This document shows positions 132 through 42,757 of a stretch of DNA of 43,729 nt, piece by piece. The stretch comes from an uncultured bacterium (GTDB lineage Bacteria; Cyanobacteriota; Vampirovibrionia; Gastranaerophilales; Gastranaerophilaceae): NCBI GenBank assembly GCA_902780525.1, contig CACZFL010000014.1, positions 1 to 43,729 of the forward strand, written 5' to 3'. The position numbers were made by a program, and so were the translations under genes. The notes below the pieces were generated by a model. It was given only the letters and a program-made list of their open reading frames with translations. It did no database searches and had not been told where the DNA came from. The number at the start of each line of letters is the position of its first letter. The first letter of the stretch is position 1.

Positions 132-257
132 TTGCACTATGTTGCACTTTATTGCACAGGGTAAATATTCAAATATATTAGTACTTTAAGGCATGAAAAA
201 TTCTGAAAATTCAAAATATCAGTGCAAAATGGTGCAAAAATTGGGACAAAAGTGCAA
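132..257. promoter_or_regulatory. Phased TTGCAC / GTGCAA array (operator- or iteron-like)
   Basis: TTGCAC occurs at 132, 142 and 152, exactly 10 bp apart. Its inverse GTGCAA occurs at 222, 232 and 252, again in 10-bp register, with a degenerate site at 242. The two sets face each other across an AT-rich stretch. One-turn spacing suggests protein subunits bound to one face of the helix. The array lies 110-240 bp upstream of the minus-strand gene starting at 19. The rest of 1-440 shows no gene I can support; a GGCAGAGTAC at about 373 resembles part of the 137-bp repeat downstream. Confidence 0.45.
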
Positions 258-442
258 AAATAGTCCGGCAAATCTCTACACTATAAATCTGCCTTAAACT
301 CGTAACAACTCGGCGTCATAGCCAATAATACTGCATCCAAACTGTCCGGAAAGGTTATAATTTTCTTCGGCAGAGTACTTCAGCCTTGCCAAAATCCGCT
401 GAACCCCAAAAGCTGTTCTCAACCATTCTCATTCAGGCAAAT

Positions 443-468
443 AAAAAAGAGGGTTCCCCCTCTTTTTT
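443..468 (-). terminator. Terminator of tRNA-Leu
   Basis: GAGGG (449-453) and CCCTC (458-462) form a stem flanked by A and T runs, so the minus-strand transcript ends in a hairpin plus U-tract just after the tRNA. Confidence 0.75.
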
Positions 469-471
469 ATT

Positions 472-3724: not shown

Positions 3725-5033
3725 AAATATTCTCCAATATTTTTTTAGCAATATTTTCTTTGGTATCTTTTTCAATATGATTGATATTTAAGTTTTTGTC
3801 AATGATGTAAACTTCGTTCTCATCGGAGTTAAAGCCGATATCTTTGCGTGAAATATCATTTGCTACAATATAATCACACCCTTTTGTTTTAACTTTGATT
3901 TTTGCATTTTCTATCAAGTGCTCACTTTCAGCGCAAAATCCGACAATAAGGGGAGTTAAATTACTTTTGGATAAATCCTTTTTGGACTCTTCACTGCTAG
4001 TAACCCATTGCGTATTCTCCTGTTCTCCGGTATGACAAACTGTTGCATATTCGCCCGAACGGATTTTTATTTTTTTCAGATTACTAATCTCTCTTAAAAT
4101 ATCAGGATTTTTCACAAGCTCAAGATTCAGATAATCTTCTGCACCTTTTTTTATTTTCTGTTCAGAATAGTTTCTCACCCTGTAATCCGAAACAGCAGCT
4201 GCCATAATCACACAATCATAGTCAAACAAATTTTCTTTTACCGCCTGCTCCATTTCCTGTGCTGTTTCCGTAACTATATTTTTAAAACTACCCTTTGTGC
4301 CGAAGGTTGATATAAGAGTAACCTCTGCACCCATGCCGGCTGCTGTGTTTGCAAGTGCAATACCCATTTTGCCTGATGAACTGTTTGTTATATATCTGAC
4401 AGGGTCAATTTTTTCTCTTGTTCCGCCTGCAGTAATCAGAATCTTTTTCCCTGATAACTTTCCGCTTTTCTGAATATTTGTATTATGAAAATCCTGATTA
4501 TTTAATATTTTAACTGTTGCGTCAAAAATCTCTTCCGGCTCTCTCATTCTGCCAACGGCATTTGTTCCGCAGGCAAGAAAACCTTCTGAAGGGTAAAGGA
4601 TATTATATCCGTTTTCTTCTAATTTTTTAATATTTTCCTGTACAAACTTATTCTCCCACATATTATTGTTCATGGCAGGTGCGATCAAGAACGGCTTATT
4701 AAAAGCACAAGCCGTTGTTGAAAGAAGGTTATCACAAATTCCGTTTGCTATTTTGCCTATTGTATTTGCGGTTGCGGGAGCAATAACGAAAATATCCGCG
4801 TCGGTAAGTGCAATATGCTCGGGCTTATATTCATCAATATCAAACTGCTCAACATAAACTTCGTTATTTGATAAAGTTTGTAGCGTGAGTTTTGTTACAA
4901 ACTTAAGTGCATTAGGAGTTACAACGACTCTTACGTTTGCACCTTCTTTCTTGTACAAGCGTATAAGCGAACAAATTTTGTACGCCGCAATCCCACCGGT
5001 AATCCCTACTAATATATTTTTACCTTCTAACAT
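3717..5033 (-). CDS. coaBC: Bifunctional phosphopantothenoylcysteine decarboxylase/phosphopantothenate-cysteine ligase
   Basis: This enzyme performs two consecutive steps of coenzyme A synthesis. The CoaC half (about 1-180) has the catalytic His at 73, the PAMNNNMW motif at 119-126 and the Cys of FLACG at 155. The CoaB half follows from 196 with TAGGTREKIDPVRYITN. It is 438 residues, longer than the usual 400 or so, because of an extra low-conservation segment at about 325-358 between the LVKNPDIL and LIVGFCAE motifs. TATAAT ends 6 nt before the ATG, so the mRNA may be leaderless. It heads the operon with the nif3-like gene and an exported protein. Confidence 0.93.
   Translation of the reverse strand: MLEGKNILVGITGGIAAYKICSLIRLYKKEGANVRVVVTPNALKFVTKLTLQTLSNNEVYVEQFDIDEYKPEHIALTDADIFVIAPATANTIGKIANGICDNLLSTTACAFNKPFLIAPAMNNNMWENKFVQENIKKLEENGYNILYPSEGFLACGTNAVGRMREPEEIFDATVKILNNQDFHNTNIQKSGKLSGKKILITAGGTREKIDPVRYITNSSSGKMGIALANTAAGMGAEVTLISTFGTKGSFKNIVTETAQEMEQAVKENLFDYDCVIMAAAVSDYRVRNYSEQKIKKGAEDYLNLELVKNPDILREISNLKKIKIRSGEYATVCHTGEQENTQWVTSSEESKKDLSKSNLTPLIVGFCAESEHLIENAKIKVKTKGCDYIVANDISRKDIGFNSDENEVYIIDKNLNINHIEKDTKENIAKKILENIFE
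3960..4061 (-). repeat. In-frame insertion inside coaBC
   Basis: This stretch encodes residues about 325-358 of CoaBC, rich in Ser, Glu, Thr and Gln and not expected in CoaB. On the minus strand it begins like dispersed repeats of the form TGTCATxCCGGAG...GCAATGGG. That suggests a repeat inserted in frame, comparable in principle to Rickettsia palindromic elements. No second copy lies in this window. Confidence 0.35.
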
Positions 5034-5039
5034 ACCTAT

Positions 5040-5045
5040 ATTATA
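5040..5045 (-). promoter_or_regulatory. -10 box of coaBC, leaderless type
   Basis: TATAAT is followed after 6 nt (ATAGGT) by the coaBC ATG, so the predicted transcript starts at or next to the start codon. The -35 is weak. Confidence 0.45.
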
Positions 5046-5085
5046 AAATAAAAATACAATAACTATAACAAATACAACTGCTTCT

Positions 5086-6021
5086 TTATGATAATAATTT
5101 CATCATTTCTGCATAAACCGTTTCTGCCGGACTTTTCAAAGGTATGTTGGCAGAATTTTCATATAGTTCGTCAGGAATCCACTGATGACGTGATGCAACC
5201 CATAAAGTCTTTTTACCCAGATATGTTGCAACGTGAGCACTGCCGGTATCGACGCTTATTATTCCTTTAAGGTTATTTATTATATAAACCAGTTCCTGAA
5301 CGTTAGTTTTATTGATTAAGTCAAGAAATAAAACATTTGTCTTATGCAATGCATCCGAATATTCCTGAGCTTTTTCACCACTTCCCAATACTAATACTTT
5401 TTTATCATTATGATTAAAAACACTAATAATTTCTTTAAGCTGCTCTACAGTCATACACTTATAGTCGCCATTTCCGATAGGATTTATCGCTATATATTCT
5501 GCAGGATTAAAATCAATATGTGTTTCAATAATTTTTTCAGCATTAAGTTTTATCGGAACATGAATAAATTTTTCCTGTAAAATTCCGCTTAAAAGATTTG
5601 TTACTTCACAGCCTATGAATACATTTTTATCGGAAATAATCTTATAACGGCTGCGTCTTAAAAATGTATCAAAAAAGAAATTAATATCATTAAACAATAT
5701 ATACTTACTGTTTAACAAATTAGAAATAAAAATAGGACGTTGCCTGCGAAAAGTTACAAATGATGCATAAACATCTTTATAACCGATATCTTTTTTTAAA
5801 TTTATAGTCCCTTTTAATCCTTTATGGACACTTTTTTTATTTAATACAACAACCTTATCAATACCTTCCATTAAATTTGCTAAATATTCCCATTGCGGAT
5901 ATACAACCAAACAAATATTAACAGATTCATAAAAATGTCTTATGTTATAAATAAGCTCGCTTAAGACTATTGTATCTCCCAAATGATTAGATGCAAAGAT
6001 AACAAAATTCTTAGTTGTCAT
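5086..6021 (-). CDS. Glycosyltransferase family 9 (heptosyltransferase-like)
   Basis: The 311-residue protein has the GT-B layout of ADP-heptose:LPS heptosyltransferases: an N-terminal half with NHLGDTIVLSELI near residue 12, and a C-terminal donor-binding half with SVDTGSAHVATYLGK, the family's D-T-G-x-x-H motif. It probably transfers a sugar during lipopolysaccharide core or other surface glycan assembly on the cytoplasmic face. It is transcribed alone from its own promoter. The donor and acceptor cannot be read from the sequence. Confidence 0.8.
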   Translation of the reverse strand: MTTKNFVIFASNHLGDTIVLSELIYNIRHFYESVNICLVVYPQWEYLANLMEGIDKVVVLNKKSVHKGLKGTINLKKDIGYKDVYASFVTFRRQRPIFISNLLNSKYILFNDINFFFDTFLRRSRYKIISDKNVFIGCEVTNLLSGILQEKFIHVPIKLNAEKIIETHIDFNPAEYIAINPIGNGDYKCMTVEQLKEIISVFNHNDKKVLVLGSGEKAQEYSDALHKTNVLFLDLINKTNVQELVYIINNLKGIISVDTGSAHVATYLGKKTLWVASRHQWIPDELYENSANIPLKSPAETVYAEMMKLLS

Positions 6022-37320: not shown

Positions 37321-38721
37321 TTATTGTTCCAATATATAATTTAATATTGTTCTCACTCCCGCGCCGGTTGCACCTGAGATAAACTCTTTTTGCGGTTTAT
37401 CGAGGAATGCGGTTCCTGCAATATCAATGTGAGCCCATTTGACGTCTTTAACGAATTTTTTCAGGAATACACCTGCTGCAGAAGCACCGCCCCAGCGAGA
37501 ACCTGAGTTTTTCATATCTGCAATATCTGATTTTAAACCGTCAAAGTACTCATCCCACAAAGGAAGTTCCCAGAAGTTTTCACCATTTCTTTTTGCTGTT
37601 TCGATAAGCGTATTGATTAACCCTTCATCATTACCCATAATACCTGAAGCATGAGTACCCAAAGCAACCATACAAGCGCCAGTAAGAGTTGCAAGGTCAA
37701 TAACTTCATCTACACCGAGTTCACAAGCGTAGCAAAGAGCGTCTGCAAGAGTTAAACGACCTTCTGCGTCAGTATTATCAATCTCGATTGTCTTACCGTT
37801 CTTTGCAGTTACAATATCGCCCGGCTTGTATGCTTTACCGCTCGGCATGTTTTCACAAGCTGCAATTATACCGTGAACTTCAACCTGAGGGTTGAATTCT
37901 TTTATTATGCTCATAACACCCAGAACACAAGCTGCACCTGACATATCGTCTTTCATCGTAATCATTGATGATGCAGGCTTGATATCAAGTCCGCCTGAGT
38001 CAAAGCAAATACCTTTACCGATTATTGCTATACGTTTTTTTGGATTATCGCAAGTGTATTTCATGTGAATAAATTTTGGCTCATTTATGCTTCCCTGTCC
38101 TACAGCAAGAAAAGCACCCATGCCCATTTTTTCACATTCTTCCTTGTCATAAATTGTTGTATCAAGACCAAAATCCTGAGCAATATTTGCAAGCTCTGAG
38201 GGAGTTGCAAATTGAGCAGGTTCGTTAGCTAAATTTCTTGCAAAACTCATTGCAGCTGATATTTTTTCAGCTTTTTTAACAATCTCCGGATTAGCTTTTA
38301 CATAAACTTCCTGAATATGTTTGTCTTTTTTTTCTGATTTATATTTATCAAATTTGTAATCAGCAATAAATGCTCCCATTACTAATTGTTCCGAGTAGTC
38401 AAAATCAACTCCGTCATAAACAAAAGCAACTTTTTTAGCTTCCATTTGGGAGCATTTTTTTATAGCTTTTGCAGTTGCTTCTCTTAGTTTGTTAGAGCAG
38501 AACTCATCTTTTTTACCGAAACCGATAACTAAGACCTTTCTATACGGTGCTTCGCCGTATGTTGGAAGCAAATATGTTTCACCAAATTTACCTTTAAAAT
38601 TATCTTCGTCAACAGCGTATTTATTAGCTAAATCATTTGATGTTTTTTCGCCTTCAAACTGGTTAACAACAAGGATGTCAGCTTCAATTGATGCTGCATT
38701 TTCAACAACTTTAATCTCCAT
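37321..38721 (-). CDS. pepA: Leucyl aminopeptidase (M17)
   Basis: A cytosolic di-metal exopeptidase removing N-terminal residues. The M17 signature NTDAEGRLTLADAL is present, with metal and substrate residues in GKGICFDSGGLDIKP (catalytic Lys in GKG) and KDDMSGAA. The 466-residue length is somewhat short for the family because of a compact N-terminal domain. AAAGGAG precedes the ATG. Confidence 0.93.
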   Translation of the reverse strand: MEIKVVENAASIEADILVVNQFEGEKTSNDLANKYAVDEDNFKGKFGETYLLPTYGEAPYRKVLVIGFGKKDEFCSNKLREATAKAIKKCSQMEAKKVAFVYDGVDFDYSEQLVMGAFIADYKFDKYKSEKKDKHIQEVYVKANPEIVKKAEKISAAMSFARNLANEPAQFATPSELANIAQDFGLDTTIYDKEECEKMGMGAFLAVGQGSINEPKFIHMKYTCDNPKKRIAIIGKGICFDSGGLDIKPASSMITMKDDMSGAACVLGVMSIIKEFNPQVEVHGIIAACENMPSGKAYKPGDIVTAKNGKTIEIDNTDAEGRLTLADALCYACELGVDEVIDLATLTGACMVALGTHASGIMGNDEGLINTLIETAKRNGENFWELPLWDEYFDGLKSDIADMKNSGSRWGGASAAGVFLKKFVKDVKWAHIDIAGTAFLDKPQKEFISGATGAGVRTILNYILEQ

Positions 38722-38806
38722 AGTTATAAAACTCCTTTCTCATTAAAAGTATTTTAGCGTACATTTATATTTTTTTAAATACTCTCTTGGTAGGAAACAA
38801 AAAAAT

Positions 38807-38835
38807 TTGACATAAAATTTTGTTTGTTTTAACAT
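38807..38835 (+). promoter_or_regulatory. Promoter of the interrupted tRNA-Val
   Basis: TTGACA (38807-38812) and TAACAT (38830-38835) are 17 bp apart, ending 21 nt before the tRNA. The interrupted gene therefore keeps a good promoter. Confidence 0.65.
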
Positions 38836-38856
38836 TAATCATGCCGAAAGGGAAAT

Positions 38857-39066
38857 GGGCGTTTAGCTCAGTTGGTAGAGCGTCTCCCTTACAAGGAGAG
38901 GGTCAGAAGTTCGAGTATGGAGAGCAACGAACTTCTGACCTAATAATGTTCGAGCGGTTTGCGAGCGGAGGCTGGAGAGCTTTTGCCTAGGGATGAAATC
39001 ACGAAGGCAAAACTCGGAATTGCCGTTCAACGCGAGCAAACCAAGATAGTCTTCTAACGCCCACCA
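38857..39066 (+). tRNA. tRNA-Val (anticodon TAC) interrupted in the T-loop
   Basis: The 5' part (38857-38916) has acceptor GGGCGTT, D-arm GCTC...GAGC, anticodon arm TCTCC-CTTACAA-GGAGA (anticodon TAC), variable GGGTC, T-stem AGAAG and the complete T-loop TTCGAGT. The 3' part (39051-39066) has CTTCT, AACGCCC, A and encoded CCA. Between them lie 134 foreign nucleotides. Joining the parts gives a perfect 76-nt tRNA with full acceptor and T-stem pairing. A promoter lies upstream and a terminator downstream. Either it is a broken gene or the insert is removed from RNA. Confidence 0.85.
38917..39050 (+). mobile_element. 134-nt insert in tRNA-Val, with hairpin element copy E1
   Basis: The insert begins with CGAACTTCTGACC (38928-38940), the exact inverse of the tRNA's own GGTCAGAAGTTCG (38901-38913). 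From 38948 it carries a repeat with conserved ends (GTTCGAGCG...GCGGAGG and CCGTTCAACGCGAGCAA...AGATAGT) and a central imperfect stem (GAGCTTTTGCCT / AGGCAAAACTC). AGT occurs at both junctions, so a 3-bp target duplication is possible. It encodes no protein. Confidence 0.6.
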
Positions 39067-39108
39067 TAAAAGAGATGATGACATTGGTTATCATCTCTTT
39101 TATTTTGA
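39067..39108 (+). terminator. Terminator of the tRNA-Val unit
   Basis: AAAAGAGATGAT and ATCATCTCTTTT form a stem followed by ATTTT, directly after the CCA end. Confidence 0.8.
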
Positions 39109-39138
39109 GAGTTTTGATAGCAAGAACCCTCGGCTGTA

Positions 39139-39257
39139 GTTCGAGCGCGAGTGAGCTGAGGGCGGAGGTGTTTTCTTTGAAAGAAACGTAAGTTTCTGAA
39201 AAGAAAAACCGTAGTTCCCGTTAAACGCGAACGAGCAAGACAGTCTTCTAACACCCA
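39139..39257 (+). mobile_element. Hairpin element copy E2 plus degenerate tRNA-Val tail
   Basis: It opens GTTCGAGCGCGAGTGAGC...GCGGAGG, has a central imperfect stem (TTTTCTTT.../...AAAGAAAAACC), and closes CCGTTAAACGCGAACGAGCA. It is followed by AGTCTTCTAACACCCA, a one-base variant of the tRNA-Val 3' end. No 5' tRNA half precedes it. Confidence 0.6.
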
Positions 39258-39460
39258 GGGGTAAATATAAAAAGAGTCTTAAACTTTTTGTATCAGGGAT
39301 TTTGACATAAAACATCGCAAGTTTGACATAAAAGTCGGAAGTTGAATCAAAAACTAATAATATTTACCCCTCGCAAGTTTGAGATTTTAGTCGGAAGTTA
39401 TTGATAAGATCAAAGCATTTACCCCTAAAGACATTTACCCCTAAATATATTTACCCCTAT
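39254..39460. repeat. GGGGTAAAT repeats and two SAAGTTTGA...AGTCGGAAGTT units
   Basis: ATTTACCCCT occurs at about 39361, 39418, 39430 and 39448, and its inverse AGGGGTAAAT at 39256. Between them two related units (39314-39347 and 39370-39402) share TCGCAAGTTTGA and AGTCGGAAGTT, the first preceded by ATCAGGGATTTTGACATAAA. The last ATTTACCCCT overlaps the stop of the transporter gene at 39457. Confidence 0.65.
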
Positions 39461-42587: not shown

Positions 42588-42662
42588 GCTGTTTCAAAGC
42601 GAGTATATTTTTATTATACATATTTTCAAATTTTACCTATGAATTGTTAAGAAAAATTTACA

Positions 42663-42757
42663 TCTTACTCGTTCGCGTTAAACGTGTCTTCGGATTTTTG
42701 CCAAAGTGATAATTACACTTTGGCAAAAATCCTCCGCACTCTGCTCACTCGCGCATC
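42663..42757 (-). mobile_element. Hairpin element copy E4
   Basis: On the minus strand it reads GCGCGAGTGAGC...GCGGAGG, then a perfect 17-bp inverted repeat (42692-42708 / 42716-42732, loop 7 nt), then CGTTTAACGCGAACGAGTA. It shares the ends of E1 and E2 with a different central stem. Confidence 0.65.

Follow-up and report, generated by a model that had tools for sequence, protein, structure and literature searches.

The window, by which we mean the whole analyzed stretch of 43,729 nucleotides from an uncultured member of the Gastranaerophilaceae (contig CACZFL010000014.1), contains a gene for tRNA-Val(TAC) that is split in its T-loop. According to the first-pass annotation, exact removal of the insert restores a perfect tRNA, and this was borne out: when 38857–38916 is joined to 39051–39066, a perfect 76-nt tRNA-Val(TAC) with CCA is formed and is called by ARAGORN. 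On the split locus itself, ARAGORN reported no tRNA, either by default or with introns of up to 3000 nt allowed, and the Rfam match to the split gene scored 29.1 bits with the T-arm excluded. A chance joint can be excluded because the pairing 3' strand is matched exactly over 16 nt and 32 relatives have the same tRNA unsplit. Because AGT stands before both sides, the exact position of the joint can be placed only to within three bases. Comparison with relatives gave 39049 as the best start of the tail (a split between 38914 and 39049 onward), with neighbouring choices being equal. The annotation's further claim of a consensus-like promoter and an intact terminator was also confirmed: the promoter boxes are TTGACA (38807–38812) and TAACAT (38830–38835) with a spacing of 17 nt, and a terminator hairpin is present 3' of the CCA. 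The features of the locus are as follows.

37321–38721, minus strand: putative aminopeptidase-like gene (named by reading its sequence), used as the marker for the locus in relatives
38807–38835, plus strand: promoter-like TTGACA-17-TAACAT of the tRNA-Val gene, read from the sequence
38857–38916, plus strand: 5' part of tRNA-Val(TAC), from the acceptor stem to the T-loop (sequence, Rfam, and ARAGORN)
38901–38913, plus strand: variable region, 5' strand of the T-stem, and start of the T-loop, serving as left arm of an inverted repeat of 13 bp with no mismatch (repeat pair I2)
38917–38953, plus strand: remnant of the proximal-unit spacer, ending in TTCGA (aligns to the unit spacer in locus L105)
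38954–39048, plus strand: hairpin core A (GCG...AAGATA), a member of alignment A1 and a match to model R1
39049–39066, plus strand: tRNA-Val 3' tail with CCA, with which the second unit begins (sequence, relatives, and ARAGORN)
39067–39106, plus strand: terminator of the second unit (hairpin pair I1)
39107–39144, plus strand: second-unit spacer with TTCGA at its end, recognized by eye in the sequence
39145–39242, plus strand: hairpin core B (GCG...AAGACA), a member of A1 and a match to R1
39243–39257, plus strand: displaced older tRNA-Val tail, GTCTTCTAACACCCA, with one difference (repeat family D4 and sequence)

The last of these features, a near-identical tRNA-Val 3' end located 194 nt farther on, was absent from the first-pass annotation. 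With it, the region can be read as two units in tandem, the first of which is damaged, followed by an older tail. Both cores were matched by model R1, core A at 38951–39048 (70.2 bits) and core B at 39144–39242 (92.5 bits). The spacer remnant of the proximal unit includes a 13-nt inverted copy of the left half of the T-arm (38928–38940), and a nearly identical terminator hairpin follows the tail in loci L106, L114, L125, and L131. The nearest relative of core A was found in L105 (RUG12284), with 175 of 198 aligned positions identical. Compared with L105, the window misses 62 nt, and these hold the tail and the terminator of the proximal unit. The tRNA-Val gene is thus probably broken, by the lack of tail and terminator in the first of the two tandem units. 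A T-loop not followed by its own tail, searched as an exact pattern, was observed in only 1 of 65 genus genomes, namely that of the window, in a count in which genomes with another T-arm or with no such tRNA are scored as misses. The annotation had also offered, as one of two alternatives, that a recent insertion killed the gene. The insert does come from a repeat family residing at tRNA T-loops, but the harm stems from the missing tail and terminator. A plain one-off insertion was rejected, as the same unit elsewhere brings a tail and a terminator with it. Farther downstream (39260–39460), other short repeats occur, GGGGTAAATAT/ATATTTACCCC and TTTGACATA...AGTCGGAAGTT, which are also present after several tRNAs.

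To place this arrangement in context, the same locus was compared among relatives, many of whose nearest records come from the rumen. tRNA-Val(TAC) was found beside the same aminopeptidase-like gene in 32 of 70 named loci (two of the 32 from one isolate). In all 32 the T-loop runs into the tail without interruption, two of them ending with the contig there. A looser search for tRNA-Val(TAC) at the same place, which spanned 24 of the other 38 loci (the remaining 14 are from distant organisms), detected none in these 24. A unit with a core or the start of a core is present in 8 of the 32 loci. L143 represents an empty site and L106 a filled one; the terminator after the distal tail of L106 resembles that of L143, whereas its proximal terminator differs, indicating that the proximal tail and terminator arrived with the unit. 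Among 58 genus genomes, 39 have the exact tail pattern, at 61 places in total, and in 8 of these 39 there are tail pairs 192–226 nt apart.

Five genomes (G216, G012, G007, G206, and G010) also have tRNA-Val tails separated by larger distances of 2.7 to 46.5 kb. Five far ends were read: those in L283, L285, and L287 start in the anticodon loop, unlike the T-loop units, while L284 has another partial tRNA-like flank and L289 follows a core-type end. On the basis of these far ends, large islands were rejected as a source of the units. The listing of open frames covered L283 and L284; a 206-aa frame in L283 looks, by its motif, like a putative tyrosine integrase.

The insert and the bases after the terminator belong to a repeat that matched the genome at 23 places (E <= 0.001), a number that includes the matches of the tRNA part itself. 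The core of this repeat is an imperfect hairpin of approximately 95 nt. Alignment A1 contains 17 of 18 distinct cores chosen by sequence pattern, including the two cores of the window (L101 was omitted as a near-duplicate of L075). In this alignment 96.1% of the cells pair, compared with only 27 to 45% in slid versions of the fold, and changes on both sides were observed in 10 of 18 pairs. Among 500 shuffled alignments, 28 reached one of the five measures of the fold, and none reached any of the other four. The core model gave 34 matches in the window's genome at E <= 0.1. At the level of the class, matches were present in 48 of 146 genomes, all 48 belonging to the window's family; at least four genomes of this family (G040, G089, G097, and G122) have no core match, whereas G166, G118, and G046 have many, and family assignment was not given for 78 unmatched genomes of this search.

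Further hairpins were also observed. Another core of this family in the window (42661–42755, minus strand) stands away from any tRNA, and its context recurs at G000:C9:64386. A similar context that lacks a core follows tRNA-Ile(GAT), and the two may represent a filled and an empty site of the core by itself. A head-to-tail array in L235 (about 4800–5548, G000:C19) contains five cores plus two hairpins of greater length; it begins directly after a terminator-like T-run and reaches the contig end. A different and longer type of hairpin, starting GCGGATTTTGGCAAGG, is located after tRNA-Leu(CAG) in the window (about 250–470, minus strand), following a TTCA 3' of the terminator; types similar to it stand at tRNA-Val in L285 and L293.

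We then asked how cores are placed relative to tRNA genes. The usual order is the tRNA, a terminator, a spacer with a TTCGA-like piece of the T-arm at its end, a core ending in AAGACA, and a second copy of the tRNA tail, which begins just past the TTCGA of the T-loop. A unit can accordingly be defined as tRNA 3' tail, terminator, spacer, and hairpin, roughly 190–230 nt in all, followed by the second tail copy, with the split at the T-loop. A tRNA's own tail was repeated within 330 nt (at most 3 of 15 mismatches) for 13 of 38 tRNAs, compared with 5 of 1382 trials with foreign tails. We further examined 59 core loci, which are the best matches and no random sample; 47 could be parsed and 12 could not. 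A tRNA is located upstream in 26 of the 47, and in 22 of these 26 the core is followed by that tRNA's own tail with at most two mismatches, one of the 22 (L220) being scored on three letters only. The other four (L184, L189, L190, and L209) have a poor or different tail. In the remaining 21 parsed loci, among which are the two cores of the window, ARAGORN reported no tRNA upstream. As some cores stand after terminators or in head-to-tail arrays, the T-loop is not the only site of cores. Inverted copies of the T-arm in the spacer were detected as exact 8-mers for 3 of 38 tRNAs with their own T-arm versus 4 of 1370 foreign trials; with one mismatch allowed, the numbers were 6 of 38 versus 83 of 1370, a weak link between a spacer and its own T-arm.

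Three further arrangements were observed. At tRNA-Ala(TGC) in L054 (900–2900, G000:C3), an array of units has three kinds of tails (Leu-like, Ala, and Val-like), and a stretch of about 1 kb with a 184-aa frame lies between units. In L211 (about 1450–1620, G105:C4), a core is set cleanly into the T-loop of a tRNA-Ile remnant that lacks its 5' part, with no second tail between, possibly an insertion of the core alone. In L005 (G000:C3:173089 on), a reverse-oriented core is placed between two copies of the tRNA-Pro(TGG) tail.

Could the insert instead be excised at the RNA level, with ligation of the two halves, which would make it an intervening sequence of a kind new to bacterial tRNAs? This was the other of the two possibilities raised by the first-pass annotation. 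The perfect tRNA left by exact removal would fit it, as would a promoter and terminator intact as in a maintained gene, the lack of another copy in the assembly, and the acceptor stem and the D and anticodon arms, which still form when the unspliced RNA is folded. On the other hand, the insert belongs to a repeat whose units elsewhere stand past an intact tRNA with its terminator, and the gene is split in just the one genome of 65. The machinery is not apparent either. The splicing endonuclease EndA (PF01974) had no match in the genome, while its control matches were obtained in 4 of 14 genomes, all archaea; the RtcB ligase (PF01139) likewise had none, with control matches in 9 of 14. Intron families of Rfam gave no match at the gathering score, nor any at E <= 5 over 38800–39300. 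A bulge-helix-bulge at the two joints was not evident in the single minimum-energy fold viewed. A group I self-splicing tRNA intron was rejected, since covariance models found no catalytic intron fold, and an archaeal-type protein-spliced intron was rejected on the lack of PF01974 and PF01139. Excision from RNA was thus not supported, and we regard it as highly improbable; in all likelihood the insert is no intron.

A more serious alternative is that the assembly is faulty or mixes strains. The real locus might have an intact proximal unit, or an intact tRNA-Val(TAC) might exist unassembled, so that the split form would be a minor allele or confined to the contig. The assembly comprises 2.09 Mb in 35 contigs and is 98.6% complete. 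The tRNA model detected 40 places in it, and ARAGORN read 38 tRNAs from the loci fetched there, among which the sole tRNA-Val is GAC. With a relative's intact tRNA-Val(TAC) as the query, the only full-identity match in the assembly was the split gene. GTA and GTG make up 56 of 161 valine codons in seven ORFs of the window, implying that the cell needs a Val(UAC) tRNA. However, tRNA-His was not found in the assembly either, nor was a whole tRNA-Ser(GCT), for which two partial copies only were detected. The refuting result named by the annotation, an intact tRNA-Val(TAC) elsewhere, was thus not obtained in this assembly, but with these other tRNAs also missing the absence is weak evidence, and the gaps themselves speak for an assembly fault. 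So do the occurrence of the split pattern in a single genome of the 65 and the tail places of relatives, at least 7 of 61 of which are within 150 nt of a contig start, as though assemblies tended to break off at such sites (no expectation was computed for this number). Against a fault, the contig continues without a gap, and the joint shares only about three bases, which would be too few for an ordinary short-overlap misjoin. Taken together, an assembly fault or a mixture of alleles is quite possible, and we give it only slightly less than an even chance. It is compatible with the reading of the insert as part of an element. The two partial tRNA-Ser(GCT) copies (L244 and L246, G000:C6) are about 18 kb apart, one adjoining an integrase gene, and neither has a matching 5' acceptor strand.

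Based on the anatomy of the insert and its relatives, we consider it probable that the insert is a remnant of a hairpin-bearing unit of about 200 nt, of a kind that resides in the T-loop of many tRNA genes in this bacterial family and supplies them with a new 3' end and terminator, and that this tRNA-Val(TAC) copy is likely non-functional and probably unspliced. The repeats are likely a new kind of very small mobile element, their mobility being inferred. In the mechanism that we propose, a unit would integrate whole, through site-specific recombination of the T-loop with the tail copy that it carries, a putative recombinase acting in trans on the units. Each new unit would restore the tRNA and displace the older tail outward, and a later deletion in the proximal unit may have broken the tRNA-Val gene. 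Six tyrosine-recombinase matches were found in the window's genome, none of them tied to cores. Y1 transposases had no match in the core-rich genomes G000, G166, G046, and G160 and one in G089, which has no core match. A Y1 transposase as helper was rejected because its presence does not track with the number of cores, and a hairpin mobilized by IS200/IS605 or REP/RAYT because this transposase is absent from the four core-rich genomes.

The same arrays might have formed without any integrating element, if the host tRNA 3' region was duplicated in tandem, with template switching, around hairpins. Some distal copies do match far beyond the tail (Thr(CGT) and Gly(CCC)), and the head-to-tail arrays of cores away from tRNAs also agree with such an origin. 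However, duplication does not readily account for the terminators of L106, the distal one being like that of the empty site and the proximal one different. Nor does it fit the finding that the core type at the tRNA-Val T-loop varies among genomes, or that one core type occurs behind tRNAs of many kinds. We therefore think duplication unlikely. More tentatively than the reading of the insert as a unit remnant, and with somewhat more doubt than confidence, we suggest that tRNA T-loops in this gut lineage are docking sites for stacked non-coding cassettes of about 200 bp, each composed of a replacement tRNA 3' half, a terminator, and a recombination hairpin, which would form a separate class of integrating elements of much smaller size than the tRNA-targeted islands known so far. 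Their hosts would be kept alive by the rebuilt tRNA, and decay of a cassette could break an essential tRNA.

Should the units prove mobile, they would rank with the smallest elements that rebuild a tRNA, and they would be missed by island finders that require an integrase and 2 kb. They may account for patchy tRNA genes in assemblies of this lineage, and they raise a testable question about the enzyme that recognizes the hairpin and the T-loop. A cautionary point also follows: a clean split in a bacterial tRNA can reflect a decayed array of elements and not an intron.

No description of tRNA-rebuilding units of about 200 nt was found among the titles and abstracts listed from CC-licensed PMC text. 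In integron cassettes, the attC site, at the 3' edge of each unit, folds into a hairpin with conserved unpaired places, and units are stacked from one docking site. The units described here may be likened to them in their hairpin and stacking, although docking would take place in the T-loop of a tRNA. REP/RAYT, RU, and MITEs are also short non-coding palindromic repeats at many intergenic places; they differ from the present units, which reside in the T-loop with a tail and terminator, and no Y1 transposase was found in the window's genome.

Some casposons are located at tRNA 3' ends, where their target includes the final four to seven bases of the tRNA (PMC4046053). They are large and code for Cas1 and PolB, in contrast to the gene-less units. 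A casposon was rejected, as units of 192–226 nt are too short for Cas1 and PolB genes. In Caldiarchaeum, a tRNA gene split in pieces has been attributed to a mobile element (PMC3293823); that case differs in being archaeal and in having spliceable introns and a 1.8-kb recombinase-bearing element.

The closest parallel may be with the genomic islands targeted to tRNA and tmRNA genes by tyrosine integrases, which are collected in the Islander database (PMC4383910). In these islands, the target gene is restored by an island-borne tail, the displaced 3' fragment is found at the far end, tandem arrays occur, and the T loop is one of the crossover subsites named (PMC4383910). The database drops candidates of less than 2 kb or without an integrase, whereas the present units measure 192–226 nt between tails and contain no gene. 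The window's own proximal unit also fails to restore its tRNA-Val. The family as a whole nevertheless resembles such islands in a restored tRNA and a displaced fragment downstream in the same orientation, as seen in L106 compared with L143 and in the 22 of 26 tRNA-linked cores.
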